Program-made: the position numbers and the translations under genes | The notes under the pieces: model-generated | What the model saw: the letters and a program-made list of their open reading frames with translations, nothing else | What the model was told of the DNA's origin: nothing | Database searches by the model: none | Assembly (NCBI RefSeq): GCF_017813335.1 | Contig: NZ_JAGIYY010000015.1 | Location: 1-33,990, forward strand | DNA from: Tianweitania sediminis | GTDB lineage: Bacteria > Pseudomonadota > Alphaproteobacteria > Rhizobiales > Rhizobiaceae | DNA length: 33,990 bases | Direction: 5' to 3' | Part shown: positions 10,749 through 27,110 of the stretch, piece after piece | How the letters are laid out: every line of letters begins with the position of its first letter | How positions within the stretch are numbered: position 1 is the stretch's first letter

Positions 10749-11192
10749 CGTCTCTCTCTCCTCTCGGACCCTGTTGCCGCTGTCCGTAAGGAAATATTGT
10801 GGTCTGGATCGCCCACGCACAAGAGGTGTTTCGAAGAAAACGACCATCGCTCCAGGTTTTGTGGCAACTGAATCAAGAAGTGAGGACTTGTCAACAATTG
10901 AGAATGCGGCCTGACCGGATCGACAATTCTGCCGATCGGCAGGAGCGAGTCCTTCAACATTGTGTTGGCGCCAAGGATTTGTGCCAGTATTGTCAACCCT
11001 GACTACGGGCGAACCCTTCAGTGCTTGTTCTCCGTGCCCTTGGGGATCTTTTTGAATCCTCCGGAGGGCATGCGGTGAACCTCGAATCCTTGAGCGCAGC
11101 GTCCGCAAAAACGACGAAGGGCCCTGGATTGGAGAGGTCCGGGTACTTCGTCGAGAGCGGCTTGCGCGCGGCAGGCGAGCGGGCGCCAGGGG
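10749..11192. other. intergenic stretch, no gene seen
   Basis: This stretch is visibly less GC-rich than its flanks, especially 10790-11010. The reading frames through it have no family-like content and no good ribosome sites. It lies upstream of the small minus-strand gene at 10748 and probably holds its promoter, but I could not find a convincing -35/-10 pair. Confidence 0.4.
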
Positions 11193-11670: not shown

Positions 11671-11679
11671 TGGATCTCC

Positions 11680-11958
11680 CTATGGCACCACGTGGATATT
11701 CGAAGCCGGGTCCTGCTCGTTGCGCCTGCTTAGGGCAGCCTGCGCGATACGCTTGCGGTCATGTACCGGAAGGTTGGACAGGGCCTCCGCGAACGGCTCC
11801 GGGGTATAGACTGCAACGACCGTGTTCATCTCGCCGTCGCGGCCCTTGACCTTGCTAAGCTGAATGTGGGCGTGCAGGAGGAGGGCTGACAGGTCGCCCC
11901 TTCGCAGGCTGTCCAGGAAGGCCCGCGCGTTCTCTCCGTCGGAATCTGTGTGTGCCAT
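11680..11958 (-). CDS. hypothetical protein, start uncertain
   Basis: A 92-residue protein of unknown function starting MAHTDSDGENARAFLDSL. It contains VVAVYTPEPFAEALSNLP and HDRKRIAQAALSRRNEQDP, which look like a conserved small helical domain, but I cannot name it. No secretion signal is present. The ATG at 11958 has GGAG directly abutting it, which is a poor spacing. The strongest ribosome site nearby (AAAAAGGAGG, minus strand, 12033-12024) serves a GTG at 12017 in another frame, so an N-terminal frameshift is possible. The gene is followed 9 bases later by the split gene at 11670. Confidence 0.5.
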   Translation of the reverse strand: MAHTDSDGENARAFLDSLRRGDLSALLLHAHIQLSKVKGRDGEMNTVVAVYTPEPFAEALSNLPVHDRKRIAQAALSRRNEQDPASNIHVVP

Positions 11959-12361
11959 CTCCGGCAGCCTGCCGCATCTGGTTGCCGACAGACAAGCGCG
12001 GGAGGGTGGCCTTCCACCGATTGCCTCCTTTTTCCAGTATACCAAGACACCGGGCGAACCACGCGAGGGCACTCAGCGGCCCCGCAAATCGCTCCGAATT
12101 CCGCGGAACGTGCCGTTAACGACGTTTTCACAAGTCCGGCCAGAGATCTGGATCTCCTGGGCGGGATGCTGCTATCGACACCGCGCCCCGGTGTAGCGAC
12201 TCGCCGCCGGACTTGACCGCGAAACCTCCCAAAGACCTCGTAGGGCGCGATGCCCACCCTTCACCCGCTGCGCGGCCATCCGGCTTCGCGGCTCCTGACT
12301 TCTATCGCTGTGCGGTATCCTGACGGGACCCCACGGCTCGCGAACCTGTGGGAATTTTTCA
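11959..12361. other. divergent intergenic region
   Basis: This lies between the minus-strand gene starting at 11958 and the plus-strand gene starting at 12362, and should carry promoters for both. It contains the near-perfect minus-strand Shine-Dalgarno AAAAAGGAGG (12033-12024). A TATACT hexamer sits just upstream on the minus strand (12041-12036), too close to that site to be its promoter. I see no convincing gene in it. Confidence 0.4.
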
Positions 12362-12715
12362 ATGAACCAGAACGACCTTGCCAAGCTCATCGCCGACTTG
12401 TTCAACAGCTGCGCCGCCGAACCGCGCCCGGCAGGCGGCGAGTTCGACTACCTGCGGTTCCGCTTCCGGAACGGCTCGGTGCAGCTGTCCGAGCGTCCCT
12501 GCAGCGATGCGGACGCGAACCGCCGTGGAGGCTATGCCCTCTACGCGGTGAAGACCACGATCGTCCCGCTCAACGTCCCCGTGGGGCCGATGACGTATTG
12601 GGCGCCCTCCGTCTTCTTCATCCCCGACGACGAGGCCATGCGCCCCGAGGTCGCGTATGACGGATCTCCGTTCCGGCGCGGAGTCGAGGCGGTGAAGTTC
12701 GGACGCCCTTCATGA
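12362..12715 (+). CDS. hypothetical protein
   Basis: An intact 117-residue protein that I do not recognise. It starts MNQNDLAKLIADLFNSCAAE and has a beta-rich centre (FDYLRFRFRNGSVQLSERP, YALYAVKTTIVPLNVPVG). It ends DGSPFRRGVEAVKFGRPS, with no signal peptide or membrane span. It is the only plus-strand intact gene in the island and is followed at once by a strong intrinsic terminator, which supports it being a real transcribed unit. The ribosome site is weak (GTGGGA about nine bases upstream). Confidence 0.6.
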   Translation: MNQNDLAKLIADLFNSCAAEPRPAGGEFDYLRFRFRNGSVQLSERPCSDADANRRGGYALYAVKTTIVPLNVPVGPMTYWAPSVFFIPDDEAMRPEVAYDGSPFRRGVEAVKFGRPS

Positions 12716-12798: not shown

Positions 12799-13839
12799 TT
12801 AGGCCGGAGCGCCAGCGTTTCTACCTGCGATCTGTAATGTCTCGCGGGGGCTCTGCGCGAAAGAGCGGCGGTAATCTCGGGAGAAGTGGCTGTGGCTTGA
12901 GTAGCCCACATCGTGGGCTACCTGGGTGATTGTGGTCCCAGGTATTGGGTTGGATAACAGTCGATGTGCAGCCTCAAGACGACGTTCGACAAGGTAGCGC
13001 AGCGGAGCGGTGCCTAGATGCTTGGCGAAACCGTTATACAGAGACCGTCGACTCGTGCCGGCATATTTTATAATCTCTACTATTGTCAGCGGGTACATGT
13101 AGGAAACGTCGATCAAGTGCATGGCTCGATGCATGAAGGCAGGCAGTGACGCGGCTTTACGTGCAGAAGGGGCCGATAAGGTGGACGCGCCTATAGCTAA
13201 GTCGATGAGGACACGTTCGAAGTCTGTAGAAACCTCACCGTCAAGCTTCGAGATGCTGGCAGTTTTATCAGCGATCGTCGTGTTGAGCAGCCGGAAGAAC
13301 GTTGCGTGCTCGTCAAGGGCTTCCACCACAACGGGCGCAACCTTGAGCGCAGTAAAGTCGGCACTTCCGCAGCGCCTCTGGAGATAAGCATTGACGCTGG
13401 CGCTGCCGAAAATGACGTTCAGGATGTCAGCGTCGCAGTCCCAGGAACGGCTGAGTTCGCCGGATCTGCTTGCCATCAAGAATTGCCCGGGCTTCACTTC
13501 AAAGGAAAATCCCTCGTGCCGGGCACGAAACATGCCGCGGAGGGGCACATATATGGAGATGCGATCCCGCTGCGTGCGGCGCGTGACGGTCTCGACCTCA
13601 TCCGATGTCCGCCACTTCAGCATGTGAAGTGCGCTCTGGCCGATGCTTAAAGCCTTGCCCTGCAAGGTGACGCAGCCGCTGGAGGGCGCGTATACGCCGC
13701 ATCGGCCGTCCGTAAGTGATGAGACGACGTTGCGTATCCTATCCAAGCCCATGTCGCCGCGGCTATCCTCAGCCGGCACGGCGGAGTCGTAAGTCGCGCA
13801 AAGTTGCTGCAGAGCATCTGTTGTCGTCAACCGCGTCAT
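12799..13839 (-). CDS. AraC-family transcriptional regulator
   Basis: A 346-residue regulator with an N-terminal ligand-sensing domain of the AraC_binding_2 type (about residues 50-220). The C-terminal double helix-turn-helix (about 240-335) includes EIIKYAGTSRRSLYNGFAKH and ITQVAHDVGYSSHSHFSRDY. It is divergent from the catabolic/transport run starting at 13993 and most likely activates it in response to its substrate. GGGAGG directly abuts the ATG at 13839, which is unfavourable; the TTG three codons in (13830) sits nine bases from it and may be the real start. Confidence 0.85.
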   Translation of the reverse strand: MTRLTTTDALQQLCATYDSAVPAEDSRGDMGLDRIRNVVSSLTDGRCGVYAPSSGCVTLQGKALSIGQSALHMLKWRTSDEVETVTRRTQRDRISIYVPLRGMFRARHEGFSFEVKPGQFLMASRSGELSRSWDCDADILNVIFGSASVNAYLQRRCGSADFTALKVAPVVVEALDEHATFFRLLNTTIADKTASISKLDGEVSTDFERVLIDLAIGASTLSAPSARKAASLPAFMHRAMHLIDVSYMYPLTIVEIIKYAGTSRRSLYNGFAKHLGTAPLRYLVERRLEAAHRLLSNPIPGTTITQVAHDVGYSSHSHFSRDYRRSFAQSPRETLQIAGRNAGAPA

Positions 13840-13992: not shown

Positions 13993-15723
13993 GTGGCAAC
14001 AGACACTCATAGGTCCCATAGAACCCTCACCATCTCCGGGGTGTCGGTCTTCGGTGCGGTCCTGCTGATCGTCGTCGGCTGGTTGGTCGTGCTTCCTCTA
14101 GGAGCTGTGCTGTTGGGGGCATTCAGGCCATCGGGACTCCTGCTCGATCCAGGTCTTACACTCGATAATGTGCGTCGAGTGTATTTCAACTCTGAAATCT
14201 GGAGCCTGGCTTGGACGACCGCTCGTTTCGCTTTAGGGTCGACCTTCGTTGGCCTCATCGTAGGGGCGCTCTTTGCCTGGATGATTGAACGCACCGATGT
14301 TCCGCTCGCGGGCTTTTTTCGGGGCGCCTTCATCGCCCAGATGGCTGTGCCGCCATTCTTGCTGGCAATGGGCTGGACCATTCTGCTCAGCCCACGCTCC
14401 GGACTCCTGAACGCGATCGGCGCGCAGGTCTTTGGGCCGGGTTTCACGCCCTTCAACATCTACTCCATAACAGGGATGATCTTCGTCGAGGGCATTGCGC
14501 TCGCGCCGTCAGCCTTTCTCCTGCTTGGACCTGCCTTCCGAAATCTCGATCCGAACATGGAAGAGGCGGCGCGGATGTCGGGGGCCGGCAGCCTGGAAGT
14601 ATTTCGCAAGGTGACCCTTCCGCTCCTCGCTCCCGCGCTGCTAGGAGCAACCATTTTTCTGACGATCGTGAGTTTCGTTGTCTTTGACGTACCGGGCATC
14701 CTCGGCATGCCGTCCAGAATCTGGGTGCTCTCCAGCCGAATCTACAGCCTTGCTCATGAAAGCCCTAACGGGCTCCCGGATTATGGTGCCATCAGCGCGA
14801 TCGCGATGATGTTCATCCTGGCGCTTCTCATCGCCGCTTATATTTATCAGAAGATCATTCGCGGCTCGAGCCGCTACGTCACCGTAACGGGCAAGTCTTT
14901 CCGGCACCGCCGCACCGCCTTGGGCGCGTGGCGGCTACCTGTCGCCCTGCTGGGATCCGTCTATCTCTTCGTCTGCATCTGTCTGCCAATACTGATGGTC
15001 GTGCTGGCCAGTCTCCAACCCTTCATGATGCGACCTAGCGCTGCGGCGCTCACAAACCTCTCGCTGCAGAACTACGCGCAGATCTTCGGCGACGCACACA
15101 TTGTACGGGCGATGGTCAATTCCTTCGTCATCGCGGGTGTGACGTCCTTTGGTGTATTAGTAATCGCCTTTGCGTGTTCGTGGGCGATCTCCCGGTCGCA
15201 GCTTCCCGGCATAGTGCGGCGCATTCTTGATGTATTCACACTTATTCCCCTCGCCATCCCGGGTATCATCCTCGGTACAGCGTTGATCTACCTGTATCTC
15301 GCCCTGGGCTTCCTCGGAATTTACGGGACCATCTGGATCATCGTAATTGCTCACACAACAAATTACCTCTCGTTCGGAGTTCGTAGCATCAACAGCGTCC
15401 TCTCGCAGATGCATCCTGAGCTTGAGGAAGCGGCACTCGTCGCAGGCTCCGACCGCGCGAATGCGGTTCGGGCAATCATTGTCCCACTTGCCGCACCGGC
15501 ACTGGTCGCAACCTGGTTCTGGGTCTTTTCGCACAGCATTCGCGAGCTCACTCAAGCATTGATGCTCCAAAGCGTCGGCAACGCCACACTGACCACGACC
15601 CTTTTTGGGTACTGGTCCTCAGGCGAGCCCAACAAGGCGGCGGCCGTCGGGATCTCACTCTTTGCCGTGGTCTTGCTAGCCGTCTTGGCCTGGGCAGCCG
15701 CCACACTCAGGTTCCGGAAATGA
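13993..15723 (+). CDS. Fe(III)-type ABC transporter permease, double-domain
   Basis: A 576-residue membrane protein made of two fused binding-protein-dependent permease domains, as in FbpB/AfuB/SfuB-type importers. The two EAA coupling motifs lie at about 190-215 (EEAARMSGAGSLEVFRKVTL) and about 475-500 (LEEAALVAGSDRANAVRAI). Around a dozen hydrophobic segments are visible. It begins with GTG; the frame is closed by a stop not far upstream, and no strong ribosome site is seen. Its stop overlaps the ATPase ATG (ATGA). This family carries ferric iron but also phosphonates, hexose phosphates, thiamine and organic acids. The enzymes encoded around it argue for an organic substrate. Confidence 0.88.
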   Translation: MATDTHRSHRTLTISGVSVFGAVLLIVVGWLVVLPLGAVLLGAFRPSGLLLDPGLTLDNVRRVYFNSEIWSLAWTTARFALGSTFVGLIVGALFAWMIERTDVPLAGFFRGAFIAQMAVPPFLLAMGWTILLSPRSGLLNAIGAQVFGPGFTPFNIYSITGMIFVEGIALAPSAFLLLGPAFRNLDPNMEEAARMSGAGSLEVFRKVTLPLLAPALLGATIFLTIVSFVVFDVPGILGMPSRIWVLSSRIYSLAHESPNGLPDYGAISAIAMMFILALLIAAYIYQKIIRGSSRYVTVTGKSFRHRRTALGAWRLPVALLGSVYLFVCICLPILMVVLASLQPFMMRPSAAALTNLSLQNYAQIFGDAHIVRAMVNSFVIAGVTSFGVLVIAFACSWAISRSQLPGIVRRILDVFTLIPLAIPGIILGTALIYLYLALGFLGIYGTIWIIVIAHTTNYLSFGVRSINSVLSQMHPELEEAALVAGSDRANAVRAIIVPLAAPALVATWFWVFSHSIRELTQALMLQSVGNATLTTTLFGYWSSGEPNKAAAVGISLFAVVLLAVLAWAAATLRFRK

Positions 15724-16817
15724 ACATGCCTTCCGAAGAAATGTTGCGGGTCAACGACATCACCCTGTCCTACCGCGTCGGCGACATCGACATGCCCGTC
15801 CTCAACGGCGTGAGCTTTACGGTTGAGCCGGGCGAGCTCTTTACCCTACTGGGTCCGTCGGGCTGCGGAAAGACCAGTACGTTGAGATCAGTAGCGGGGC
15901 TGGAAACGCCCACCTCCGGCGAAATCACGATCGGCGGTGAGACTGTCTACTCGTCGAGTCGCAAGGTGCAGCTTGCTCCCAACCGCAGGCGGTTGGCCAT
16001 GGTTTTCCAGTCTTACGCCATCTGGCCTCACATGACGGTGGCCGAAAACGTCGCCTTTCCATTGCGTCGTATGCGGGTTGACCCTCCGGACCGCCGACGA
16101 CGGGTTGATGAAGCGTTGGGGATGGTGGGACTTGCAGGTGAGGGGCAGCGCAGCGCAACGCTTCTTTCCGGCGGCCAACAGCAGCGCGTTGCGCTTGCGA
16201 GGGCTCTGGTCAGCAATCCCCGGATGATCCTGCTGGACGAGCCACTATCTAACTTGGATGCCAAGCTGAGAGAGCAGATGCGCGGTGAAATACGCGACCT
16301 CCAGCGTAGGTCGGGAACCACCGCCGTGTTCGTAACCCACGATCAGGCAGAAGCCCTCGCGATGTCTGACAGAATCGCGGTGATGGACAAGGGCAACATC
16401 GTCGAGATGGGCAATCCCGAGACCCTGTACCTGCGTCCACGAAAGAAGTTCACGGCTCAGTTCCTAGGGCAGGCTCTGATTTTGCCCATCGACGGCTTGG
16501 AACAGGGGAGCGGCACGCTACAGCTCAGGACCAGGATCGGTGTGGTGGAAGCGCTCGCCGACACTCGTGTCAAGAACGTCGCCTGGATGGCCGCGCGCCC
16601 CGAGCATCTGACGGTAGCTGTCCCCGGTGCACAGATTCCCGGCGGCATACCGGCAAGGGTAGTGCGCGCGCAATTCACCGGCAGCACCATTGATCTTGAG
16701 CTTGATGCAGGCGGCGTCCTTTTTGCAGCCGTCGCTCGCAACGATCGCAAATTCGCGCCTGGAGACGAAGTCACCGTGAGCTTCGATCCAAGCAACATCA
16801 TCCTCCTGGAATCCTAA
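15720..16817 (+). CDS. ABC transporter ATP-binding protein (FbpC/PotA type)
   Basis: A 365-residue cytoplasmic ATPase that powers the adjacent permease. Walker A GPSGCGKTS is at 45-53. The Q-loop region VFQSYAIWPHMTV, signature LLSGGQQQRVALARAL, Walker B MILLDEPLSNLDAKLR and the H-loop VFVTHDQAEAL follow. A C-terminal TOBE-like domain (about 280-365) is typical of this subfamily. It overlaps the permease stop by four bases and is followed 11 bases later by the luciferase-like monooxygenase, so transporter and enzymes are one transcript. Confidence 0.9.
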   Translation: MNMPSEEMLRVNDITLSYRVGDIDMPVLNGVSFTVEPGELFTLLGPSGCGKTSTLRSVAGLETPTSGEITIGGETVYSSSRKVQLAPNRRRLAMVFQSYAIWPHMTVAENVAFPLRRMRVDPPDRRRRVDEALGMVGLAGEGQRSATLLSGGQQQRVALARALVSNPRMILLDEPLSNLDAKLREQMRGEIRDLQRRSGTTAVFVTHDQAEALAMSDRIAVMDKGNIVEMGNPETLYLRPRKKFTAQFLGQALILPIDGLEQGSGTLQLRTRIGVVEALADTRVKNVAWMAARPEHLTVAVPGAQIPGGIPARVVRAQFTGSTIDLELDAGGVLFAAVARNDRKFAPGDEVTVSFDPSNIILLES

Positions 16818-16828
16818 GGGAGCTATAC

Positions 16829-17872
16829 ATGCACTTTGGTGTACTCGACCACCTCGACTTCGGCGGAAAAACCGACCTATCGGCCCACTATGAGGAACGG
16901 CTGCGCATGGTCGAACGATTGGACCGCGCTGGCTTCTACGGGTTTCACGTCACCGAACACCACTGCACTCCCTTGGGTGGCGCCGCATCCCCGAGCATCT
17001 TCCTGGCTTCCGCCGCACAGCGCACTGACAACATCCGACTGGGGACTCTGGTCTACACACTGCCCATGCATCATCCTCTTAGATTGATTGAGGAGATCTG
17101 CATGCTCGACCATTTGAGCAACGGCAGGCTCGACATCGGGTTCGGGCGCGGTTCAGTCCCGTTCGAGTTGAGTTACTTCGGCCTCGATCCCGACGATGCT
17201 GTCGATCACTATAGCGAAGCCCTAAAAATTGTGCGGGAAGGACTGACCACGAGCCATCTCGACCACAACGGGAAGTACTTCCAGTTTCGAGATATTCCCA
17301 TAGCGTTGTTCCCCCTGCAGCGGCCTATGCCACCTGTCTGGTACGGCGTGCATTCGATAGAAAGCGCGCAGAAAAGCGCGGACCTTGGCTACAACATCGT
17401 CTGCAATCAAGCCGTTGAAAACTCCGCGCGTTACATCGGATCATTTCGGGAAGCGCTCGATAAGAGCGGTACGTCCCGTTCCACCCGGATGATCGGCCTC
17501 CATCGTGCCGTGATCGTTGCACCGACAGACCGGGAGGCCGAAGCAGTTGCAGATCGCGCCTACCAGAACTTCCTCAAGAGTTTTCGCTTCGTCACTGCCA
17601 GACATGGCGCCGAAAATAAGGTTAGCGGGCGTGAAAATAGCTTTGCGGAGCTTGTCAAGATCGGTCGGGGCATTGCCGGAAGCCCTGCAACCGTCGCCGA
17701 CTTCCTCGCGGACCAGATGTCTAGGGCGGGTGCGAACTACTGCTTGATGTACCTGGCACTTGGCGACATGTCGCATGAAGAAATCACAACTTCGATAAAG
17801 CTCTTAGCGAACCAGGTCATGCCCCGGCTCCAGGGCGAAGACGGCCTTGCACGCTACGGAACCGATGGCTGA
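16829..17872 (+). CDS. LLM-class (luciferase-like) flavin-dependent monooxygenase
   Basis: A 347-residue TIM-barrel enzyme of the bacterial luciferase superfamily. Such enzymes use reduced FMN, supplied by a separate reductase, and O2 to oxygenate or cleave their substrate. Recognisable blocks are MHFGVLDHLDFGG, GFYGFHVTEHHCTPLGG, IRLGTLVYTLPMHHPLRLIE and EICMLDHLSNGRLDIGFGRG. The C-terminal part is complete, at normal length. The ATG has GGGAG about six bases upstream. An FMN reductase lies downstream at 19992 in the same run, the expected partner. RutA (uracil ring opening), NtaA/EmoA (aminopolycarboxylates), DszA and PyrA (pyridine) are members, so the substrate range is wide. It is probably the committing enzyme of this cluster. 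Confidence 0.88.
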   Translation: MHFGVLDHLDFGGKTDLSAHYEERLRMVERLDRAGFYGFHVTEHHCTPLGGAASPSIFLASAAQRTDNIRLGTLVYTLPMHHPLRLIEEICMLDHLSNGRLDIGFGRGSVPFELSYFGLDPDDAVDHYSEALKIVREGLTTSHLDHNGKYFQFRDIPIALFPLQRPMPPVWYGVHSIESAQKSADLGYNIVCNQAVENSARYIGSFREALDKSGTSRSTRMIGLHRAVIVAPTDREAEAVADRAYQNFLKSFRFVTARHGAENKVSGRENSFAELVKIGRGIAGSPATVADFLADQMSRAGANYCLMYLALGDMSHEEITTSIKLLANQVMPRLQGEDGLARYGTDG

Positions 17873-18905
17873 GAAAATGCTCTCCGTCGCTACAGTCCCG
17901 AGATCCACGCAGGCAGCATATTATGCGGCGCAAGGCCCCGCGAATGAGGTTCTGGAGTTGGGTCTTGTCCCTGTTCCGGACCCCGGTCCAGGAGAAATCC
18001 TGGTTCGTATGACATGTTCCGGCGTCAATCCTTCAGACGTGAAGGCGCGGGCAGGGGCAACACGTGCGATGGCCTGGCCCCGCGTCGTGCCGCATCAGGA
18101 TGGCAGCGGTGTTGTGGAGGCTGTGGGACACGGGTCGCGTTTCTCACCCGGAGACCGAGTGTGGGTGCGTTTCGGGCAATGGCAACGTTCGTTCGGAACG
18201 GCCGCGCGGCGCATGGTGCTTCCAGACGATCTCGCCATGCCTTTGCCGGCAGAGATTTCAGACGAAACCGGCGCCCTGTTGGGGGTTCCTGCGCTCACGG
18301 CTTGGTTGTGCGTTGATAGTTTTAACGGTCCCGAAGGATCGACTGTGCTCGTGCAAGGGCGGGGAGCCGTTGCAGCTTACGCAATACAGTTCGCGAAGCT
18401 CCGCGGTTACAAAGTTCTGGTGGTCACGGGTTCAAGCCGTCGCGCGGCTGAGGCGAGGACCATCGGTGCCGACGAAACGTTGCTCCGCACTGAAACAAAC
18501 TGGCCTGATCGGGTACGGGAGTTGACCAGTGGACGCGGGGTCGACGCGGTAATCGAAGCCCTCTTCGCTGCGAATGTGAGAGATTACCCGCGCTTCATGG
18601 CAACCAGGGCAACGGCAATCGTCTACGGTACCGACACAGCCGACACCACGGGAATCCCTGCAAGGTGGTTCTTGCAGCAGTCCGTCACGGTTCGATTCGT
18701 CTACCTCTACCGCGCGGCCCCAGCGCGCATCGCCGCGGCGGCACAAGCTGTGACGGACATTGCCGCTAAACTTAAGCATGGCACAATCACTCGTCTGCCC
18801 TTGGAGCAGATCGTCCTTGCCCACGAGCTCGTCGAGAATGAGGAACACGAGGGCCGCGTAGTCCTCTCGCTAAGTGAAGCTAACGTCCCGGAGGAGACAA
18901 CATGA
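17865..18905 (+). CDS. zinc-independent MDR / quinone oxidoreductase-like protein
   Basis: A 346-residue medium-chain dehydrogenase/reductase of the NADPH:quinone reductase type. It has an N-terminal GroES-like domain (VLELGLVPVPDPGPGEILV, CSGVNPSDVKARAG) and a Rossmann domain from about 160. The nucleotide loop VLVQGRGAVAAYAIQFAK (161-178) departs from the usual AxGGVG pattern, with Ala where the last Gly is expected. No zinc-binding cysteines are seen. The ATG at 17865 overlaps the monooxygenase stop; an in-frame codon at 17847 is less likely. It probably reduces an enone or quinone-like intermediate, although the altered loop leaves cofactor preference open. Confidence 0.8.
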   Translation: MAEKMLSVATVPRSTQAAYYAAQGPANEVLELGLVPVPDPGPGEILVRMTCSGVNPSDVKARAGATRAMAWPRVVPHQDGSGVVEAVGHGSRFSPGDRVWVRFGQWQRSFGTAARRMVLPDDLAMPLPAEISDETGALLGVPALTAWLCVDSFNGPEGSTVLVQGRGAVAAYAIQFAKLRGYKVLVVTGSSRRAAEARTIGADETLLRTETNWPDRVRELTSGRGVDAVIEALFAANVRDYPRFMATRATAIVYGTDTADTTGIPARWFLQQSVTVRFVYLYRAAPARIAAAAQAVTDIAAKLKHGTITRLPLEQIVLAHELVENEEHEGRVVLSLSEANVPEETT

Positions 18906-19912
18906 AAGCCTTGAGAGCCATCTTGACGGTAACGTCGCTTGTCGGCGCCTGCCTACATAGTGGAGGGCCGGCGCAGGCCGACGCTCTTGCAGACCTTGCG
19001 TCCGCCGCCGCAGGCAAGGAACCCGTTCTTTGGTACGAAAGTGGTACGCCCGCCCAGATCGGCAAGGTAATCTCTGCGTTCAACGCCAAGTATCCAGACA
19101 TCAAGGTCGAGTTCGTCCAGGACACGGCCGGCAACACCATTGCGTCCAAAATTATACAGGAATCGCAGACCGGAAATCCGACCGCGAGCTTCATCACGAC
19201 GGGGGCCCAGCAGCTGGGTCCGCTGCTTGAGCGGAGCCTTCTTGCCGAAGTGGATTGGCGGGCTCTGGGAATTGATGTTGCCCTGACGCCAAAACCTTAT
19301 GCCGCTGCCGTTGCGGCATCAATGTTCATTGGCCTGCGAAACAGCGTAGCGGTGACTGCCGACAAGGCGCCTACGACCTGGGAAGAGTTCACCGACCCGG
19401 AATGGAGCGGCCGCATCGGGACCTGGGTCCGTGCGCCAGGCTTCTCGACACTCGCGGTTGATCTTGGACGGGATCAGGTGAAGTCTCTGCTAGAGAAGCT
19501 CGTTCAGCTCAACCCATTCCTGTACCAGTCGCCCAACATGGTCGCCCAGCAGTTGGCCGCCGGCGAGATCGACGTCGGCATCGGTTTCTACCACACCTCA
19601 CTGCCTGCAATCGCGGCCGGTGCGCCTGTCGAGATAATCTTCCTCGATCCCATACCGATCAACACTATCTGGGCGGCTGTCATCAAGTCCGGGCGTAACG
19701 TTGAAGGTGCGCAGGTGCTGGCAGCTTGGCTAACGTCTGCAGAGGGCGCGATGGTCTACGAGACCGCGACGGGCCGGGGCAATCCACTTGTTCCGGGCAC
19801 GCAGGCGCAAAGGGTGTCTGCGGATAAAAGACTGGTCGAATGGCCGCTGGATCAGCTGGCGACCTACCGGGACATTGATGCTGAGTACTCCAAGATCCTT
19901 TCCGCCAAATAG
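18902..19912 (+). CDS. Fe(III)-type ABC transporter periplasmic substrate-binding protein
   Basis: A 336-residue type II periplasmic binding protein (FbpA/AfuA family), exported by an N-terminal signal peptide. Cleavage is probably at AQA-DAL near residue 26; VGAC at 14-17 is a weak lipobox-like alternative. Mature blocks include VLWYESGTPAQIGKVISAF, ASFITTGAQQLGPL, APTTWEEFTDPEWSGRIG and AAGEIDVGIGFYHTSLPA. It overlaps the MDR stop by four bases (ATGA). It supplies the ligand specificity for the permease/ATPase at 13993-16817. The family's paired tyrosine iron site is not evident to me, in line with an organic ligand. Confidence 0.85.
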   Translation: MKALRAILTVTSLVGACLHSGGPAQADALADLASAAAGKEPVLWYESGTPAQIGKVISAFNAKYPDIKVEFVQDTAGNTIASKIIQESQTGNPTASFITTGAQQLGPLLERSLLAEVDWRALGIDVALTPKPYAAAVAASMFIGLRNSVAVTADKAPTTWEEFTDPEWSGRIGTWVRAPGFSTLAVDLGRDQVKSLLEKLVQLNPFLYQSPNMVAQQLAAGEIDVGIGFYHTSLPAIAAGAPVEIIFLDPIPINTIWAAVIKSGRNVEGAQVLAAWLTSAEGAMVYETATGRGNPLVPGTQAQRVSADKRLVEWPLDQLATYRDIDAEYSKILSAK

Positions 19913-19923
19913 CAAGCAGCCTG

Positions 19924-19947
19924 CCGGCACCGCGTCCGCGGTGCCGG
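19924..19947. repeat. perfect hairpin between binding-protein and FMN-reductase genes
   Basis: CCGGCACCGCG at 19924-19934 is followed after two bases by its exact complement at 19937-19947, a very stable stem-loop. It begins 12 bases after the binding-protein stop, has no T-run, and the next gene starts 45 bases beyond it. Such structures after binding-protein genes often stabilise the upstream message or partly attenuate downstream transcription; that role is inferred. Confidence 0.7.
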
Positions 19948-19991
19948 TCCTGCCAACCACCGGCGTCCCAGCCGGCAACCAAGAGGTCGTC

Positions 19992-20582
19992 ATGAGCCCA
20001 ATTCGTATTGTCGGCATTGGCGGGACGGATCGTCCCGGCTCGTCAACAGAGAAAGCTCTTCGCCTGAGCCTCGTGGCTGCTGAGCGCCTTGGTGCCAAAA
20101 CGACCGCCTTTACGGGTGCGACGCTCATGATGCCGATGTACTCGCCAAACGCGGAGCGGTCGGTCGCGAGCTGCGATCTGATCGAAGCGCTCCGTCAGGC
20201 AGACGGCATCATCATCGCGTCGCCTTCCTACCACGGCTCGATATCGGGCTTGGTCAAGAACGCCCTTGACTACGTCGAAGACATCAAGGGGCCGGATCGG
20301 ACCTACTTCGATGGCATGCCCGTGGGGCTCATCGCGTGCGCAGCAGGCTGGCAGGGAGCAGTGCAGACGTTAGCGACACTTCGCTCGATTACTCACGCAC
20401 TCCGTGGCTGGCCGACGCCGCTTGGAGTCGCGATCAACACTGCCGGCCCGGTTTTCGCTGCTGACGGTTCATGCACCGACATGTCCGTGAAGCTGCAACT
20501 CGAAGCCATCGGTCGGCAAGTGGTCGAGTTCCTAGCGATGCGTTCCGCGCCGGAGCGGCAGGCAGCGGCTTTGGGAGGTTGA
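19992..20582 (+). CDS. NAD(P)H-dependent FMN reductase
   Basis: A 196-residue flavodoxin-fold reductase (FMN_red family). It has an N-terminal phosphate-binding loop GIGGTDRPGSSTEKAL and the signature ASPSYHGSISGLVKNALDYV, followed by GLIACAAGWQGAVQTLATLR. It reduces FMN with NAD(P)H and should supply FMNH2 to the luciferase-like monooxygenase encoded at 16829. The frame is open upstream through the preceding gene's end. ATG 19992, with AGAGG about six bases before it, starts the family-typical sequence. It follows the hairpin at 19924-19947 and leads the second half of the cluster. Confidence 0.87.
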   Translation: MSPIRIVGIGGTDRPGSSTEKALRLSLVAAERLGAKTTAFTGATLMMPMYSPNAERSVASCDLIEALRQADGIIIASPSYHGSISGLVKNALDYVEDIKGPDRTYFDGMPVGLIACAAGWQGAVQTLATLRSITHALRGWPTPLGVAINTAGPVFAADGSCTDMSVKLQLEAIGRQVVEFLAMRSAPERQAAALGG

Positions 20583-20586
20583 TCTT

Positions 20587-20916
20587 ATGTACTTACGCAT
20601 TTTTTGGGGAAAGACGACATCCGGTGGGTTTCGGTCGATCCGTGACAATCACCTCGCACTGTCACGCGAACGACAACCGGGCAGCCGCGGGCGGATGCTT
20701 GTTCAGGACGTCAACGATCCCGACACGTTCTTTGTGCTGAGCTTCTGGGACAGCATAGAAGATGTAGCCGCCTGGGAAGGATCTGCTGATTTTCAAGAGC
20801 GCTTCGCAAGCGCTATTCGGCCCTTCACCGTCGGCACCACTACAGTGTCCCTCTGCCAGATCGTGAGCGCTGCGGGGCTGGACGCCAGCATTCTTGAGGG
20901 GGTTACCCATGACTGA
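20587..20916 (+). CDS. antibiotic biosynthesis monooxygenase (ABM)-like small protein
   Basis: A 109-residue dimeric alpha/beta-barrel-type protein. It starts MYLRIFWGKTTSGGFRSI and includes RMLVQDVNDPDTFFVLSFWD and EDVAAWEGSADFQERF, the usual pattern of ABM/Dabb-like proteins. Family members act as cofactor-free monooxygenases, isomerases or accessory proteins on phenolic or quinol compounds. It lies four bases after the FMN reductase, and its end overlaps the hydrolase start. Its function here is inferred from context only. Confidence 0.65.
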   Translation: MYLRIFWGKTTSGGFRSIRDNHLALSRERQPGSRGRMLVQDVNDPDTFFVLSFWDSIEDVAAWEGSADFQERFASAIRPFTVGTTTVSLCQIVSAAGLDASILEGVTHD

Positions 20917-21730
20917 CGTGGCGAGCAAATTCATCGATGTTGGCGCTTTCCGGACCCACTACCTCGAGGCCGGGTCCGGGCCAACGCTCGTTCTTCTGCA
21001 TAGCGGCGAATTTGGCGGCTGCGCTGAGCTGACCTGGGAATTTAACATCTCGGAACTAGCTGAGCATTTCCACGTGCTCGCCCCCGATTGGCTCGGTTTT
21101 GGCCAGACGGATAAATGGTTCTCATTCGATGACATGTGGAGCGCGCGTGTCAAGCACATTGCTGAGTTCCTGAAGGAAAAGGGCGTTGGCCGCGCCAATT
21201 TCGCTGGTAACTCGATGGGGGCGGGTACTTTACTTTCGGTTGCGGCTCAGCGAGAGCCTGCCTGGCAGATCGACCGTCTGATCGCTGTGAACGGCGGTGG
21301 TCGGATTCCGCCTGACGACGATCAAAATCAGCAGATCCTTTCCGGGTATGATGGCACTCGCGAGCATATGGAGAGGCTCACCCGCGTCATCGTCCGCCGC
21401 GAGGACCTCAGGGCTGATCCCCATTATGTGGATCGTCGTCAGGAAAGTGCTCGAAGGCCCGGTGCCTGGGAGTGTACCGCTGCCGCCCGCTTTCGCGCGC
21501 CTTTCGCAGTGCGGGGCGGGCGGGAGGCCGACTACAGGGCCATTCGTGTGCCAACACTTTTGGCGGTTGGCCGTGATGATCCCCTTAGACCCCCGGAGTT
21601 CTGGCCTTGGCTTCACAGCCAGATAGAGGGATCAACGCTTCAGTACATCGAAGGCGCAGGGCATTGCCCTCAGATTGATCGACCGGAGGAATTCAACCGG
21701 ATTGTCATCGAGTTTATAAAAGGAGCTTGA
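20909..21730 (+). CDS. alpha/beta hydrolase (meta-cleavage-product-hydrolase-like)
   Basis: A 273-residue cytoplasmic hydrolase. The oxyanion-hole region is TLVLLHSGEFGGCAE. The nucleophile elbow AGNSMGAGTLLSVA has its Ser at about residue 101, the acid is in AVGRDDPLRPPEFW and the His in EGAGHCPQID, so the triad is complete. It resembles carbon-carbon bond hydrolases of aromatic pathways (MhpC/BphD-like) and aminoacrylate hydrolase RutD. ATG 20909 is preferred over an in-frame start at 20894 because GAGGGG lies six bases upstream. It overlaps the ABM gene by eight bases. It is likely to act on the ring-opened product of the monooxygenase. Confidence 0.85.
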   Translation: MTDVASKFIDVGAFRTHYLEAGSGPTLVLLHSGEFGGCAELTWEFNISELAEHFHVLAPDWLGFGQTDKWFSFDDMWSARVKHIAEFLKEKGVGRANFAGNSMGAGTLLSVAAQREPAWQIDRLIAVNGGGRIPPDDDQNQQILSGYDGTREHMERLTRVIVRREDLRADPHYVDRRQESARRPGAWECTAAARFRAPFAVRGGREADYRAIRVPTLLAVGRDDPLRPPEFWPWLHSQIEGSTLQYIEGAGHCPQIDRPEEFNRIVIEFIKGA

Positions 21731-21733
21731 CAC

Positions 21734-22750
21734 GTGCGCTACATCGATTCCTTCAATCATTTTTTCCCCGATCGCTTGTGGAATCGGATGCTGGCCTCCA
21801 CCGGCACGGCCCGGGACATCGGTATGCGCATGCGGGGCATTCCGACCATCTACGACCTTGAGGCGCGGCTAGCATGTGTGGATCGTTTCGCCGACTTTAA
21901 CTATGTTCAGGTGCTGTCGCTGGGCATGCCGCCTCTCGAGAGCCTTGGCGAGCCACAGGAAACTGAGGAACTAGCGAAGCTCGGCAATGACGGGCTCGCT
22001 GACTTGGTTGATCGCTACCCGGACAGGTTTGTGGGCTACTTGGCTTCGCTTCCGATGAACTCCCAACATGCCGCGCGTGAGGCCGAGCGAGCCTTCGCCA
22101 ATGGCGCTAACGGTCTCCAGCTCCACACCAACGTCAACGGTCGTCCGCTTGACGATGAGGCCTTCTACGGAGTGTTCGAGACGGCGGCCAGGCACGGCCG
22201 TCCTGTGTTCCTGCACCCTTCTCGCGCGGCGAACATGCCGGACTATCTAAGCGAGACGAAATCAAAATATGAGATCTGGTGGACTTTCGGCTGGCCCTAC
22301 GAAACTTCCGCAGCGATGGCGCGGCTTGTCTTCTCTCGAATGCTGGACAAGTTGCCGGACCTCAAGGTTCTGGCGCACCATATGGGAGCCATGGTGCCGT
22401 ATTTCGAAGGACGGGTGGGGCCTGGTTGGGATCAGCTGGGTAACCGGACATCGGATGAGGACTACAAGGGCTTGTTGGCACAGCTCAAGAAGCGACCGCT
22501 AGACTATTTCAAGGACTTTTACGCTGATACGGCCGTTTTTGGATCGCGATCAGCCACCATTTGCGGGTTGGACTTCTATGGTGCGGACCGTGTCCTTTTC
22601 GCCTCTGATAGCCCATTCGATCCGGAGAAAGGCCCGGGCTACATCAGGGACACTATAGCTGTGCTTCAGTCCCTTGAACTATCAAACGAGGACCGCGAAA
22701 AGATCTGCTTCCGCAACGCGGAGAGCCTCCTCAAAATCGGGCGGTGCTAA
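21734..22750 (+). CDS. amidohydrolase-2 family (ACMSD-like) protein
   Basis: A 338-residue TIM-barrel metal-dependent hydrolase or decarboxylase of the ACMSD/gamma-resorcylate decarboxylase group. Visible site residues are H9 (DSFNHFFP), H161 (RPVFLHPSR), H215/H216 (VLAHHMGAMVPYFEGR) and D292 (LFASDSPFDPEKG). The first histidine of the usual HxH motif is F7, so the metal site differs from ACMSD. It begins with GTG 21734, with AAGGAG about nine bases upstream overlapping the hydrolase stop. It is the last gene of the cluster and probably decarboxylates or hydrolyses a pathway intermediate. Confidence 0.82.
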   Translation: MRYIDSFNHFFPDRLWNRMLASTGTARDIGMRMRGIPTIYDLEARLACVDRFADFNYVQVLSLGMPPLESLGEPQETEELAKLGNDGLADLVDRYPDRFVGYLASLPMNSQHAAREAERAFANGANGLQLHTNVNGRPLDDEAFYGVFETAARHGRPVFLHPSRAANMPDYLSETKSKYEIWWTFGWPYETSAAMARLVFSRMLDKLPDLKVLAHHMGAMVPYFEGRVGPGWDQLGNRTSDEDYKGLLAQLKKRPLDYFKDFYADTAVFGSRSATICGLDFYGADRVLFASDSPFDPEKGPGYIRDTIAVLQSLELSNEDREKICFRNAESLLKIGRC

Positions 22751-23142: not shown

Positions 23143-24333
23143 ATGACCTTCGTAAAGGTGAGCAACACCGTCATCCATTGCCGCGTGACCGGAACCGCGG
23201 GGCGGCCGCGTCTGGTCTTTTTGAACTCGCTCGGATCGGACTTCCGGATCTGGGAAGAGGTGGAGGATCGGCTGCGCCACCGTTTCGAGCTCCTCTTTGT
23301 AAATAAGCGTGGTCACGGGTTGAGCGAGGCCGTGGCCGGCCCTTACACGGTTCGGCAGCTGGCCGATGACGTACTGGGCGTTCTGGATGCGCTTGGCTGG
23401 AAAAGCACGAGCGTGGTCAGCTTGAGCATCGGCGGCCTGATCGCGCAGCAGATCGCGCTGCAGGCGCCGGAGCGCGTCGAAGCGCTCGTTCTGATGGATA
23501 CGGCTGCGAAGATCGGCAGCGCCGACAGTTGGAACGAGCGCATTGCGGCTGTTGAGGCTGGCGGGATGCAGTCCATCAGCGAGGCCGTGGTGAGCCGCTG
23601 GCTGACGAGCGACTTCCGCGAGGCGCAACCGACTGCCTATACCGGCTGGCGCTCCATGCTGGAAGCCACATCGACGGAAGGCTATCGCGGTTGCTGCGCT
23701 GCCTTGCGCGACGCGGATCTGACCCTCGATGTCGGCCGCATCACGGCTCCGACCCTCGTCTTGTGCGGTGACGACGACAAGCCGACGCCACCGGATCTCG
23801 TGCGCGCCACGGGCGAGCGCATTCCGGGCGCCCGCTTTATCCTGATACCGGGCGCGGGCCATCTGCCCTGCTTGGAACAGCCGCAGCAAGTCGCCAGCCT
23901 CATTGCTGAGCATGTCGAAGCTGCTAATTGGGAGAAGGCGCAAGCGGCGTCACGCTTCGACGCGGGTATGGCCGTGCGCCGGCGCGTGTTGGGCGATGCC
24001 CATGTGAACCGCGCAAGCGGTTCTGCCACGCCGTTTGATGCCGCGTTTCAGCGCTTCATCACGGAAGGCGCCTGGGGTACGGTATGGTCGAACCCGCATT
24101 TGTCGCTTCGCGAGCGCTCGATGATCACGATCGCCCTGCTTGCTGCTCTCGGGCAGGAGGATGAAGTGGCCATGCACGTGCGTGCAACCCGCAACACGGG
24201 CGCGAGCGAGGAGGACATCGCCGAAGCGCTGATGCATGTGGCCGTTTATGCCGGCGTTCCCGCCGCCAACCACGCGATCAAGATCGCCAAGAAGACGCTG
24301 ATCGAGATGCGGGAGGAGAAACAACCGCAATGA
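23143..24333 (+). CDS. pcaL: fused 3-oxoadipate enol-lactonase / 4-carboxymuconolactone decarboxylase
   Basis: A 396-residue two-domain enzyme for two consecutive protocatechuate steps. The N-terminal alpha/beta hydrolase (about 1-260) is enol-lactonase PcaD, with [17 protein letters not shown], nucleophile Ser95 in [12 protein letters not shown], and GDDDKPTPP and [11 protein letters not shown] for acid and histidine. The C-terminal domain (about 270-396) is decarboxylase PcaC, with [20 protein letters not shown] and [20 protein letters not shown]. The first glycine of the usual GxSxG is Ser93. Fusions named PcaL are known from actinobacteria and several proteobacteria. ATG 23143 with AGGAGG upstream is preferred to the in-frame 23092. 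Its stop overlaps the pcaH start. Confidence 0.88.
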
Positions 24334-25052
24334 GCAACTCCTATTTCCAGCGTGACCGCGACTGGCATCCGCCGGCGCTCACGCCCACCTACAAGACGTC
24401 CGTGCTGCGCTCGCCGCGCCATGCGCTCCTGTCGCTTCCCACGACCTTGTCGGAAGAAACCGGTCCCGTGTTCGGCCACGACATTCTTGGGCCCCTCGAC
24501 AATGACCTGATCCGCAACTTCGCCAAGGATGGCGCGGAAGCGATCGGCCAGCGCATCGTCGTTTATGGTCGGGTCCTGGACGAAACGAACCGCCCGGTGC
24601 CGGGTGCGCTTGTGGAATTCTGGCAGGCCAATGCCGGCGGTCGCTATCGCCACAAGAAGGAAAGCTACCTCGCCGCGCTGGATCCCAATTTCGGCGGCTG
24701 CGGTCGCGCCATCACGGACGCCGAAGGCCGCTACGAGTTCCGGACCGTGAAGCCGGGTGCTTATCCCTGGCCCAACGGCGTCAATGACTGGCGGCCGGCC
24801 CACATCCACTTTTCGGTATTCGGCAACGCGTTTGCGCAGCGCTTGATCACCCAGATGTATTTCGAAGGCGACCCGATGATCTGGCAATGCCCGATCGTGA
24901 TGACGATCCCTGACCGCGCCGCTGTGGAGCGCCTGGTTGCGGGGCTTGACCGCAACGCCACGATCCCGATGGATAGCCTCGCCTACAAGTTCGACATCGT
25001 GTTGCGCGGCCGCCGGTCGACGCTGTTCGAAAACCGGCCGGAAGGGAACTGA
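24330..25052 (+). CDS. pcaH: protocatechuate 3,4-dioxygenase beta subunit
   Basis: A 240-residue intradiol dioxygenase subunit that carries the catalytic non-haem Fe(III) and opens protocatechuate to 3-carboxymuconate with O2. The four iron ligands are visible as Y106 (GGRYRHKK), Y145 (KPGAYPWPN), H158 and H160 (WRPAHIHFS). [17 protein letters not shown] is the family signature. Length is normal. ATG overlaps the preceding fusion gene's stop, and its own stop overlaps the pcaG start (TGATG), so subunits are made in a coupled manner. Confidence 0.95.
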
Positions 25053-25678
25053 TGGTGCAGCGCCTCGACTACCTGAAGGAATCGCCGTCCCAAACCGCTG
25101 GTCCGTACGTCCACATCGGCACCAATCCGAACTGGGTCGAAATCACCGGCGTTTGGAAGGAAGACCTGGGGCTCGTTCTGGTCGGGCCAGAGACCCAGGG
25201 CGAGCGCATCCTGATCGAAGGCATTGTCACGGACGGCGCCGGTGCGCCGGTGCGTGATGCACTGATTGAAATCTGGCAAGCCGATGCGGAAGGCCTGCAC
25301 AACTCTCCGGCTGAAACGCGCGGCAGGTTTGATCCGAACTTCGTCGGCTGGGCGCGCCAACCGGTGGCAGAAGCGGACGGCTCCTTTCGCTTCGAAACGG
25401 TGAGGCCGGGGCAAGTGCCTTATCCGGATGGCCGAATGCAGGCGCCACATATCACGGTGTGGATCGTGGCGCGAGGCATCAACACTGGCCTCCACACGCG
25501 TTTGTATTTTGCCGACGAAGCAGAAGCCAACGCCAAGGACCCGCTGCTTCTGCGCATCCCAGAGCCGGCACGGCGCGAAACGCTGGTCGCCCGGCGAAGT
25601 GAGCGCGACGGCATGCCGGTGTTCACGTTCGATATCCGGATCCAGGGCGCAAACGAAACCGTCTTCCTCGACATGTGA
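25052..25678 (+). CDS. pcaG: protocatechuate 3,4-dioxygenase alpha subunit
   Basis: A 208-residue subunit that packs against PcaH and helps to form the substrate pocket. It begins [20 protein letters not shown] and has the intradiol-family blocks VRDALIEIWQADAEG and FRFETVRPGQVPYPDGRMQA. It lacks the four iron ligands of the beta subunit, as expected. The end FDIRIQGANETVFLDM is family-typical. It overlaps pcaH by one base, and pcaI follows after 29 bases. Confidence 0.95.
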   Translation: MVQRLDYLKESPSQTAGPYVHIGTNPNWVEITGVWKEDLGLVLVGPETQGERILIEGIVTDGAGAPVRDALIEIWQADAEGLHNSPAETRGRFDPNFVGWARQPVAEADGSFRFETVRPGQVPYPDGRMQAPHITVWIVARGINTGLHTRLYFADEAEANAKDPLLLRIPEPARRETLVARRSERDGMPVFTFDIRIQGANETVFLDM

Positions 25679-25707: not shown

Positions 25708-26442
25708 ATGAACAAGACGCTTCCCACTCTCGCAGAAGCCGTTGCCGGGATCGCCGATGGCGCCGTTGTGATGATCGGCGGCTTCGGCGGCTCGGGCGCC
25801 CCGATCGAGCTCGTGCACGCGCTGATCGACCGCTTTCTGAAAACGGGCCAGCCGAAGAACCTCACGATCGTGAACAACAATGCCGGCAACGGCCATGTCG
25901 GTTTGGCGGCCATGATCGAGCACGGCATGGTTGCCAAGCTGATCTGCTCGTTTCCGCGTTCGGCCGATCCGCGAGTTTTTACCGAACGCTATCTGGCCGG
26001 ACAAATCGAGCTGGAACTCGTGCCACAGGGGACGCTGGCGGAACGGATCCGCGCCGGCGGCGCGGGGATCCCGGCCTTCTACACGCCGGCAGGTTTCGGC
26101 ACCGCACTTGCCGAAGGCAAGCCGGTGGAGGAGTTCGACGGCCGTTCTTATGTGCGCGAGCGCTGGCTCAAGGCCGATTTCGCGCTGGTGAAAGCCCATC
26201 TTGGCGACACGCTCGGAAACCTGACCTTCAACAAGGCGGCGCGAAACTTCAATCCCCTGATGTGCATGGCCGCAACAACCACAATCGTGCAGGTGTCGCA
26301 GATTGTGAAGCCGGGCGCGATCGATCCGGAGCATGTCGTGACGCCGGGCATCTTCGTGCAAGCCGTGGTCGAGGTTGCAAATCCCGCGCAGGAGGAAGAC
26401 CTCAACCGCGCCAATGCCCATTTCCCGGAGGTCGCCGCATGA
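25708..26442 (+). CDS. pcaI: 3-oxoadipate CoA-transferase subunit A
   Basis: A 244-residue alpha subunit of the succinyl-CoA:3-oxoadipate CoA-transferase, which turns 3-oxoadipate into its CoA ester. Family motifs are VMIGGFGGSGAPIELVHAL near residues 21-39 and GGAGIPAFYTPAGFGTALAE near the middle. The frame opens earlier at a GTG (25675), but ATG 25708 with GGAAGG six bases upstream starts the normal protein. The stop overlaps the pcaJ ATG. Related acetoacetate CoA-transferases are similar, but the pcaHG context favours 3-oxoadipate. Confidence 0.92.
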   Translation: MNKTLPTLAEAVAGIADGAVVMIGGFGGSGAPIELVHALIDRFLKTGQPKNLTIVNNNAGNGHVGLAAMIEHGMVAKLICSFPRSADPRVFTERYLAGQIELELVPQGTLAERIRAGGAGIPAFYTPAGFGTALAEGKPVEEFDGRSYVRERWLKADFALVKAHLGDTLGNLTFNKAARNFNPLMCMAATTTIVQVSQIVKPGAIDPEHVVTPGIFVQAVVEVANPAQEEDLNRANAHFPEVAA

Positions 26443-27110
26443 GCACCAAGCTTTCCGCAACGCAGATCGCCTGGCGGGCGGCGCAGGAAATTTCCGACGG
26501 CGCATACGTCAATCTCGGCATCGGATTGCCGGAAATGGTGGCGCGGTTCCAGCCTCCCGGACGGCAGGCGATCTTCCACACCGAAAACGGCATTCTCGGC
26601 TTTGGCGAAGCGCCCCCGGCCGGTGAAGAAGACTGGGACCTGATCAACGCCGGCAAAAAGGCGGTCACGCTTTTGCCGGGCACGGCCTTCTTTCATCATG
26701 CCGACAGCTTCGCCATGGTGCGCGGCGGCCATCTCGACATGGCGATCCTCGGCGCCTTTGAAGTGGCCGAAAACGGCGACCTCGCCAATTGGTCCACGGG
26801 GCCAAAAGGCGTGCCGGCCGTGGGTGGCGCGTTGGATCTTGTTCATGGCGCAAAGCAGGTGGTGGTGATCACCGAACACACAACCAAGGATAACAAGCCC
26901 AAGCTCGTGAAGCGCTGCTCGCTGCCGCTGACGGGCGTTGGCTGCGTGACGCGCGTTTACACCAGCCTGGCCGTGGTCGACATCCAGGGCGGGCGGTTCG
27001 TGCTGCGCGAAAAACTCGCCGCCATGTCGCTGGACGAACTGCAGTCTGTCACCGGCGCCGAGCTCGTAGTAAATGGACGCGTTGCTGATCTTGTTGTGCC
27101 GGAGCTTTGA
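26439..27110 (+). CDS. pcaJ: 3-oxoadipate CoA-transferase subunit B
   Basis: A 223-residue beta subunit that carries the catalytic glutamate, seen in IFHTENGILGFGEAPP (ENG motif). It begins MSTKLSATQIAWRAAQEISD and contains YVNLGIGLPEMVARF and ITEHTTKDNKPKLVKRCSLP, all typical. The same frame stays open far upstream through pcaG and pcaI, but that is out-of-frame shadow; the ATGA overlap with pcaI marks the start. Its C-terminus is complete (VNGRVADLVVPEL). No thiolase gene (pcaF) follows. Confidence 0.92.
   Translation: MSTKLSATQIAWRAAQEISDGAYVNLGIGLPEMVARFQPPGRQAIFHTENGILGFGEAPPAGEEDWDLINAGKKAVTLLPGTAFFHHADSFAMVRGGHLDMAILGAFEVAENGDLANWSTGPKGVPAVGGALDLVHGAKQVVVITEHTTKDNKPKLVKRCSLPLTGVGCVTRVYTSLAVVDIQGGRFVLREKLAAMSLDELQSVTGAELVVNGRVADLVVPEL

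Follow-up and report, generated by a model that had tools for sequence, protein, structure and literature searches.

A nine-gene uptake and degradation cluster beside a duplicated pca block in Tianweitania sediminis, and its possible role in a route to protocatechuate

Positions 1-33,990 of contig NZ_JAGIYY010000015.1 of Tianweitania sediminis (assembly GCF_017813335.1, forward strand; this whole stretch of 33,990 nucleotides is called the window below) carry nine plus-strand genes at 13993-22750 for an ABC importer and several enzymes, followed on the same strand by genes of the beta-ketoadipate pathway. Which compound is imported and degraded by these genes, and does its breakdown feed the pathway encoded next door? 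The pca set pcaDC-H-G-I-J, missed by the original prediction made for this DNA from the sequence alone, points to a carbocyclic aromatic compound ending in protocatechuate. This set, the presence of pcaH near some close relatives of the cluster's amidohydrolase and the decarboxylases among the relatives of that protein lead us to read the locus as import, oxygenation dependent on reduced flavin mononucleotide (FMNH2), hydrolysis and decarboxylation to protocatechuate. We give about an even chance to the reading that the nine genes and the pca block form a single catabolic unit under AraC control, which would degrade an imported aromatic with protocatechuate as its end point.

Open reading frame (ORF) coordinates and Pfam families were checked for the nine genes and for the AraC-family gene divergent from them; all ORFs exist at the positions originally given, with families matching the names proposed. 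Junctions between consecutive genes range from -26 to +79 bases: permease/ATPase -4, ATPase/luciferase-like monooxygenase (LLM) +11, LLM/MDR reductase -26, MDR reductase/binding protein -4, binding protein/FMN reductase +79, FMN reductase/ABM protein +4, ABM protein/alpha/beta hydrolase -8, hydrolase/amidohydrolase +3. The value of -26 assumes a TTG start for the MDR gene, and the next in-frame ATG (17865) gives -8; the FMN reductase was taken as the 196-residue reading from the ATG at 19992 inside a longer mechanical ORF, and the alpha/beta hydrolase was read from the ATG at 20909. The genes had been described as mostly overlapping, which is slightly generous, since overlaps occur at four of the eight junctions. 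With half of the genes running into the next and no gap above 79 bases, a single transcript for the nine genes is plausible. A promoter scan returned one sigma-70-like site, within the LLM gene, against 3.6 expected, and 20 terminator-like sites were found against 13.2 expected, with no clear use.

The cluster had been ended at 22750, which is indeed the end of the amidohydrolase gene, but the neighbourhood continues on the same strand with pcaDC, starting 392 bases further. The downstream block consists of pcaDC (23143..24333), a fusion of 3-oxoadipate enol-lactonase and 4-carboxymuconolactone decarboxylase (NF051488, score 462 against a cut-off of 390), pcaH (24330..25052; TIGR02422, 366 against 296) and pcaG (25052..25678; TIGR02423, 240.6 against 126) for the beta and alpha subunits of protocatechuate 3,4-dioxygenase, and pcaI (25708..26442; TIGR02429, 347 against 128.5) and pcaJ (26439..27110; TIGR02428, 297 against 243.6) for subunits A and B of 3-oxoadipate CoA-transferase, all on the plus strand. 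All five exceed their NCBIfam cut-offs and belong to the protocatechuate branch of the beta-ketoadipate pathway. A second pca operon, in the order pcaDC-H-G-I-J-F-B, lies on contig C12; its pcaF scores 687 against 597, and its pcaB 426 against 371 with NF004631 but 351.7 against 355.75 with TIGR02426. Since pcaF and pcaB are carried there, the block in the window is an extra copy. The two blocks share 84% DNA identity over 3934 aligned bases (blastn), the similarity starting at window position 23190, within pcaD, and extending as far as 27110, where pcaJ ends, with a query that began at base 20001. Encoded proteins are 80% (PcaDC), 96% (PcaH), 92% (PcaG) and 91% (PcaI) identical to their C12 copies, and at 96% identity the substrate of the window's PcaH is very likely unchanged. 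The block encodes steps of the protocatechuate branch, but differs in being an extra copy that is devoid of pcaF and pcaB and is preceded by a cluster unlike any described pathway known to us.

The gene nearest this block (21734..22750, +) encodes an ACMSD/LigW-like amidohydrolase matching Amidohydro_2 (PF04909, 3.2e-32) and LigW (chain 4inf, 2.1e-28), with relatives at 66-73%. Its named solved relatives are mostly decarboxylases (ACMSD and those of 5-carboxyvanillate, gamma-resorcylate, uracil-5-carboxylate (iso-orotate) and 2,3-dihydroxybenzoate), the nearest solved chain, 3ij6, being uncharacterised, and the protein is considered a putative decarboxylase on these family grounds. Like LigW, ACMSD and gamma-resorcylate decarboxylase it belongs to the Amidohydro_2 family, and H9, H161, H215, H216 and D292 are conserved in its subfamily. 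At the start of the N-terminal metal motif, 46 of 47 aligned sequences, the window's included, have Phe (F7), and the remaining sequence is gapped there. The corresponding position (equivalence by eye) is Glu in LigW and gamma-resorcylate decarboxylase and His in iso-orotate decarboxylase (PMC8187880), so that LigW has a Glu where the window's protein has F7. The amidohydrolase would work in the manner of its family only if the remaining ligands hold the metal.

The subfamily was found in 41 of 393 other Rhizobiaceae-level genomes, only five of them at the 60% level. Its neighbourhoods were surveyed in 46 loci (designated below by L numbers), namely the 41 family matches, the window's own being left out, and plasmid loci L115, L116, L077, L078 and L082; six plasmid records carry a relative of the amidohydrolase at 60-80% identity, of which five were covered, H66 (the same place as L055) and four others. 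Queries for pcaH included that of L077 itself and the other marker queries were proteins from the surveyed loci themselves; counts are lower bounds, because some loci (L093, L107, L109 and others) are short contig ends. Nearby pcaH was found in three of the nine loci with an amidohydrolase of at least 60% identity and in none of the 37 below it (Fisher P 0.006 without the window, uncorrected for two of the three being from one genus). In L058 and L059, from two species of one other Rhizobiaceae genus, the order is amidohydrolase, pcaC, pcaH, pcaG, pcaB, and in L077 (Rhizobium WYJ-E13) a LysR gene stands between the amidohydrolase and the nearby pcaHG. Among the 46 loci, L110 alone combines the amidohydrolase with an FMN reductase and an LLM, the latter distant (26%).

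The usual neighbours in the 46 loci (tblastn, E 1e-20) are an IclR regulator (33), a thiamine diphosphate (ThDP) enzyme (32), an aldehyde dehydrogenase (28) and a flavin adenine dinucleotide (FAD) ring hydroxylase (24); the PRK08327 and PRK06126 family cut-offs are passed by proteins of L062 and L057 and missed by those of L059 and L063. Loci L060-L063 and L083-L114 (amidohydrolase at about 49-55%) show a recurring Rhizobiaceae-level set of amidohydrolase, IclR regulator, PRK08327-like ThDP enzyme, aldehyde dehydrogenase and PRK06126-like FAD ring hydroxylase. No name for the recurring amidohydrolase/IclR/ThDP neighbourhood was found in a literature search, subscription journals being mostly outside it. 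Relatives of the amidohydrolase also adjoin genes for a FAD ring hydroxylase, for a class II aldolase-like protein and for a presumably Pht5-like protein, which in Pfam has only weak Phosphonate-bd and NMT1 matches. These neighbours led to 4-hydroxyisophthalate or a hydroxyphthalate being considered as the precise precursor; no direct evidence was found and it is not claimed.

The oxygenation step is assigned to the LLM (16829..17872, +; PF00296, 1.2e-49; EHH motif at residues 43-45) and to the NAD(P)H-dependent FMN reductase (19992..20582, +; PF03358, 1.4e-24; motifs GTDR and SPSYHGS intact), the EHH, GTDR and SPSYHGS motifs being presumed to carry their customary meaning. A PF00296 gene with a linked PF03358 gene is what a two-component FMN-dependent LLM monooxygenase calls for, and the pairing recurs in Sinorhizobium mexicanum (L014, 58 and 57% identity) and, as adjoining genes, on plasmid pl4 of Sphingobium AntQ-1 (L075, 34 and 58%); the view of the locus as an uptake and degradation cluster in which the LLM has its own FMN reductase is supported. 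Seven solved chains matched the LLM at E 1e-15 (best 7bip, 98 bits), none of which is labelled, by chain label, as a diketocamphane monooxygenase. Between the two enzymes is encoded an MDR-family, quinone oxidoreductase-like reductase (17847..18905, +, start uncertain), with Pfam matches PF00107 and PF08240, ADH_zinc_N included, and a TIGR02824 score of 110.8 against a cut-off of 296.8.

Only L014, L018, L019, L020 and L028 yielded close relatives of the LLM (52-64%), and in the stretches examined these occur without the amidohydrolase or the transporter; their neighbourhoods are varied and catabolic-looking (by eye, with some Pfam support), and the transporter of L014 differs from that of the window. 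Gene content was inspected in L014-L021 and L028 (in L021 only upstream of the LLM), and L022-L027 and L029 were checked for window homologues only. An alpha/beta hydrolase gene stands by the LLM relative in five of the nine inspected loci (L014, L017, L019, L020 and L021), directly behind it in L019 and L020; these hydrolases are of other subgroups than that of the window (best blastp E 9e-9). The flavin reductase of L017 belongs to another family, PF01613. Both L014 and L028 encode, close to their relative of the window's LLM, another LLM of a different kind, and these two additional LLMs are 33% identical.

The alpha/beta hydrolase of the window (20909..21730, +; PF12697, Abhydrolase_6) falls in the group of meta-cleavage-product hydrolases, its best solved relatives being chains 1j1i (4.6e-28) and 5jz9 (HsaD, 2e-27). 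Its motifs GNSMG, GRDDP and GAGHC are intact and are taken by us to hold the serine-aspartate-histidine triad, as in those enzymes; it does not reach the HsaD equivalog cut-off (109.6 against 400) and, unlike the setting of meta-cleavage-product hydrolases, no extradiol dioxygenase is found among the nine genes by Pfam. In L079 (Sinorhizobium RAC02) a 47% relative of the hydrolase adjoins another Amidohydro_2 protein, unmatched to the window's amidohydrolase at E 1e-6. The preceding gene (20587..20916, +) encodes a small and rare ABM-domain protein (PF03992, 6.8e-9), with a single other relative (35%, L128) in 384 other genomes of the class (E 1e-8; 2 of 385 counting the window's) and no plasmid match at E 1e-5; no further window homologue was found in L128 at E 1e-6.

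Precedents for such chemistry have been described. In Sphingobium sp. AntQ-1, a luciferase-like type II Baeyer-Villiger monooxygenase and an alpha/beta hydrolase are reported to open anthraquinone, which proceeds via phthalate to protocatechuate, itself handled through lig genes (PMC9836352), and an LLM of Caenibius performs a Baeyer-Villiger step on progesterone (PMC12239570). The logic of an LLM and a hydrolase upstream of protocatechuate is shared with the AntQ-1 route, and the same strain carries on pl4 the LLM/FMN reductase pair mentioned above; the LLM reported for anthraquinone lies however on another plasmid, and a decarboxylase of the window's kind is not mentioned in the section consulted on that route (PMC9836352). 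By analogy, the AntQ-1 and Caenibius enzymes may serve as precedents for the chemistry, and not as proof of membership.

The transporter and regulator genes complete the cluster. The permease (13993..15723, +) has two permease domains in a single chain (PF00528, two stretches), its top models being 2-aminoethylphosphonate and polyamine transporters, both under cut-off; it is followed by an ATPase with a TOBE domain (15720..16817, +; PF00005, PF08402), and the periplasmic solute-binding protein (18902..19912, +) matches SBP_bac_8, SBP_bac_1 and SBP_bac_6. Equivalog cut-offs for the 2-aminoethylphosphonate transporter PhnU2/PhnT2/PhnS2 were not reached (135 against 593 bits, the permease score with TIGR03262, 309 against 458 and 49 against 393). 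The AraC-family regulator (12799..13839, -; HTH_18, 1.6e-22) has AndR as its best NCBIfam model (88.6 bits against a cut-off of 350), and a 25% identical AraC protein lies near the LLM/FMN reductase pair of L014.

Occurrence of the set elsewhere was assessed in 113 of 130 loci; the 17 that were dropped all belong to the window's own genome, whose loci L069-L074 were kept. At 35% identity, three of the ten proteins is the most that any of the 113 loci could contain, and at least two of the ten (the ATPase not counted; 35% identity and E 1e-15) were found in three places only: L014 (LLM, FMN reductase), L032 with its sub-locus L031 (permease, binding protein) and L110 (FMN reductase, amidohydrolase), L075 falling outside because its LLM is 34% identical. 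The LLM occurs in 5 of 297 genomes of the order at E 1e-60, the window's included, in 2 of 394 genomes of the family at E 1e-75, one being the window's, and, within the genus, in the window's genome only, of three; a scan of genome contigs with two peptide patterns only gave 12 loci. For the binding protein, two of 394 genomes of the family gave a match at E 1e-40, that of the window among them. In the two other species of the genus the LLM, the binding protein and the amidohydrolase were not found at the thresholds used, and DNA matches to the window flanks were weak, short or absent. Conserved synteny, on which the original prediction would have been checked, was not found among the genomes and loci searched. 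Homologues standing apart in related genomes, which that prediction had named as counting against it, were seen for most parts of the cluster, in the L032 transporter locus without the enzymes, in the amidohydrolase loci and beside LLM relatives lacking amidohydrolase and transporter. From these distributions the cluster looks to have been assembled from separately travelling modules. The statement that no described pathway has this gene set stood, no characterised pathway matching it having been found in the literature search, a weak negative as subscription journals are mostly outside it.

What the analysis shows is the gene content, the families, the spacing, the duplication of the pca genes and the recurrence of the amidohydrolase beside pcaHG; from these we infer co-transcription, the order of reactions and their chemistry, and the end point protocatechuate. 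Under the reading as one unit, the ABC importer would bring an aromatic compound into the cell, and the LLM, given FMNH2 by the neighbouring FMN reductase, would insert oxygen, either by ring hydroxylation or by a Baeyer-Villiger step yielding an ester. The alpha/beta hydrolase would then cut the resulting ester or a C-C bond, the MDR reductase would adjust an oxidised intermediate, and the LigW/ACMSD-like amidohydrolase would strip a ring carboxylate to give protocatechuate, which the duplicate PcaHG, PcaDC and PcaIJ would carry to central metabolism, the C12 operon supplying PcaB and PcaF. A further step, which we regard as tentative and on balance rather unlikely, is that this is a new protocatechuate route, in which the part usually played by ring-hydroxylating oxygenases falls to a two-component LLM (perhaps of Baeyer-Villiger type), a hydrolase acting on a C-C bond or an ester and a decarboxylase whose metal site is altered; the substrate would be an imported, possibly plant-derived, carboxylated aromatic compound, and the route would have its own lower pathway attached by duplication. 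Should the reading as one unit be right, a widely known funnel of aromatic degradation, among the best known of all, would gain an upper pathway, and a small, testable gene set for finding the substrate would be at hand. The amidohydrolase subfamily, with its unusual metal motif and recurring neighbourhood, is the part with the widest reach.

Several observations weigh against a single unit ending in protocatechuate. The nine-gene set is a singleton, found nowhere else searched; pcaF and pcaB, both at the end of the C12 operon, are not in the block; six of the nine close amidohydrolase relatives have no pcaH in the stretch examined (some stretches being short); neither pcaH nor a cluster-type amidohydrolase was found in the stretches examined around the five closest LLM relatives (0/5); and the Glu or His usual at the first position of the metal pair is absent from the amidohydrolase (F7). 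At the junction itself the G + C content, 57-61% before about 23.0 kb, rises to 63-65%; the duplicated DNA (blastn 23190) also has its edge there, and the 392-base gap far exceeds every other gap of the cluster. By this step and this edge the pca block looks separately inserted, and they leave room for accidental adjacency. The strongest alternative, possible though doubtful in our estimate, is accordingly built on the same enzymes: the nine genes would be a self-standing degradation cluster with the pca block beside it by chance, the product being gentisate or another ring-cleavage substrate. It gains from a gentisate 1,2-dioxygenase near the amidohydrolase in L110 (483 against a cut-off of 442), from 50% relatives of that enzyme in L111 and L112, and from the maleylpyruvate isomerase, fumarylacetoacetate hydrolase and cupin genes of L077, which form a gentisate-type set; together with the other neighbours, the gentisate dioxygenase suggests that the subfamily serves aromatic degradation via dihydroxybenzoate and not protocatechuate alone. 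The separate amidohydrolase-pcaHG neighbourhoods of L058/L059 and of L077 speak however for a functional link, and the same strand and order would let transcription run through the junction. Were the adjacency accidental, an ordinary orphan catabolic cluster would be left.

Two other explanations bear on the substrate and on the importer. An N-heterocyclic or quinone-like compound had been put forward originally; this reading, with opening by a Rut-, pyridine- or trigonelline-like pathway, is now considered quite improbable. An LLM, a separate flavin reductase and an alpha/beta hydrolase are indeed shared with the RutA/RutF/RutD uracil pathway, and a uracil-5-carboxylate decarboxylase is among the relatives of the amidohydrolase, but the FMN reductase is of PF03358 whereas RutF is of the PF01613 kind, the RutD model TIGR03611 gives 51.3 bits against a cut-off of 238.5, and none of the nine proteins matches amidase, formamidase or isochorismatase families in Pfam, the last meaning that the cluster has no gene of the RutB type. 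The carbocyclic pca genes next door argue in the same direction. A literature search on the trigonelline (Tgn) pathway, subscription journals being mostly outside it, found nothing. Unlikely as well, we consider, is a composite of unrelated modules, in which an importer for another solute (of the iron, phosphonate or vitamin class) shares a promoter with aromatic enzymes. Relatives of the permease (46%), ATPase (47%) and binding protein (43%) do form a triad without the cluster's enzymes in L032, and of the three solved relatives of the binding protein at E 1e-4, two bind ligands of the Fe(III) type and one binds pyridoxal phosphate; against this, the binding-protein gene sits among enzyme genes and overlaps the preceding MDR gene by 4 bases, and the LLM and MDR genes interrupt the run of transporter genes.

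Outside the cluster and the pca block, the minus strand at 1166-8634 carries genes for a GntR-type regulator, an AMP-dependent acyl-CoA ligase and an ABC transporter of the branched-chain type, a set that may handle another acid substrate. In the region of about 4 kb at 8635-12700, of higher G + C content (62-67%), three ORFs were searched without any Pfam match; as a guess, it may be what is left of a mobile element. The sulfate assimilation genes cysH-cysD-cysN (30656-33791) lie at the end of the window.

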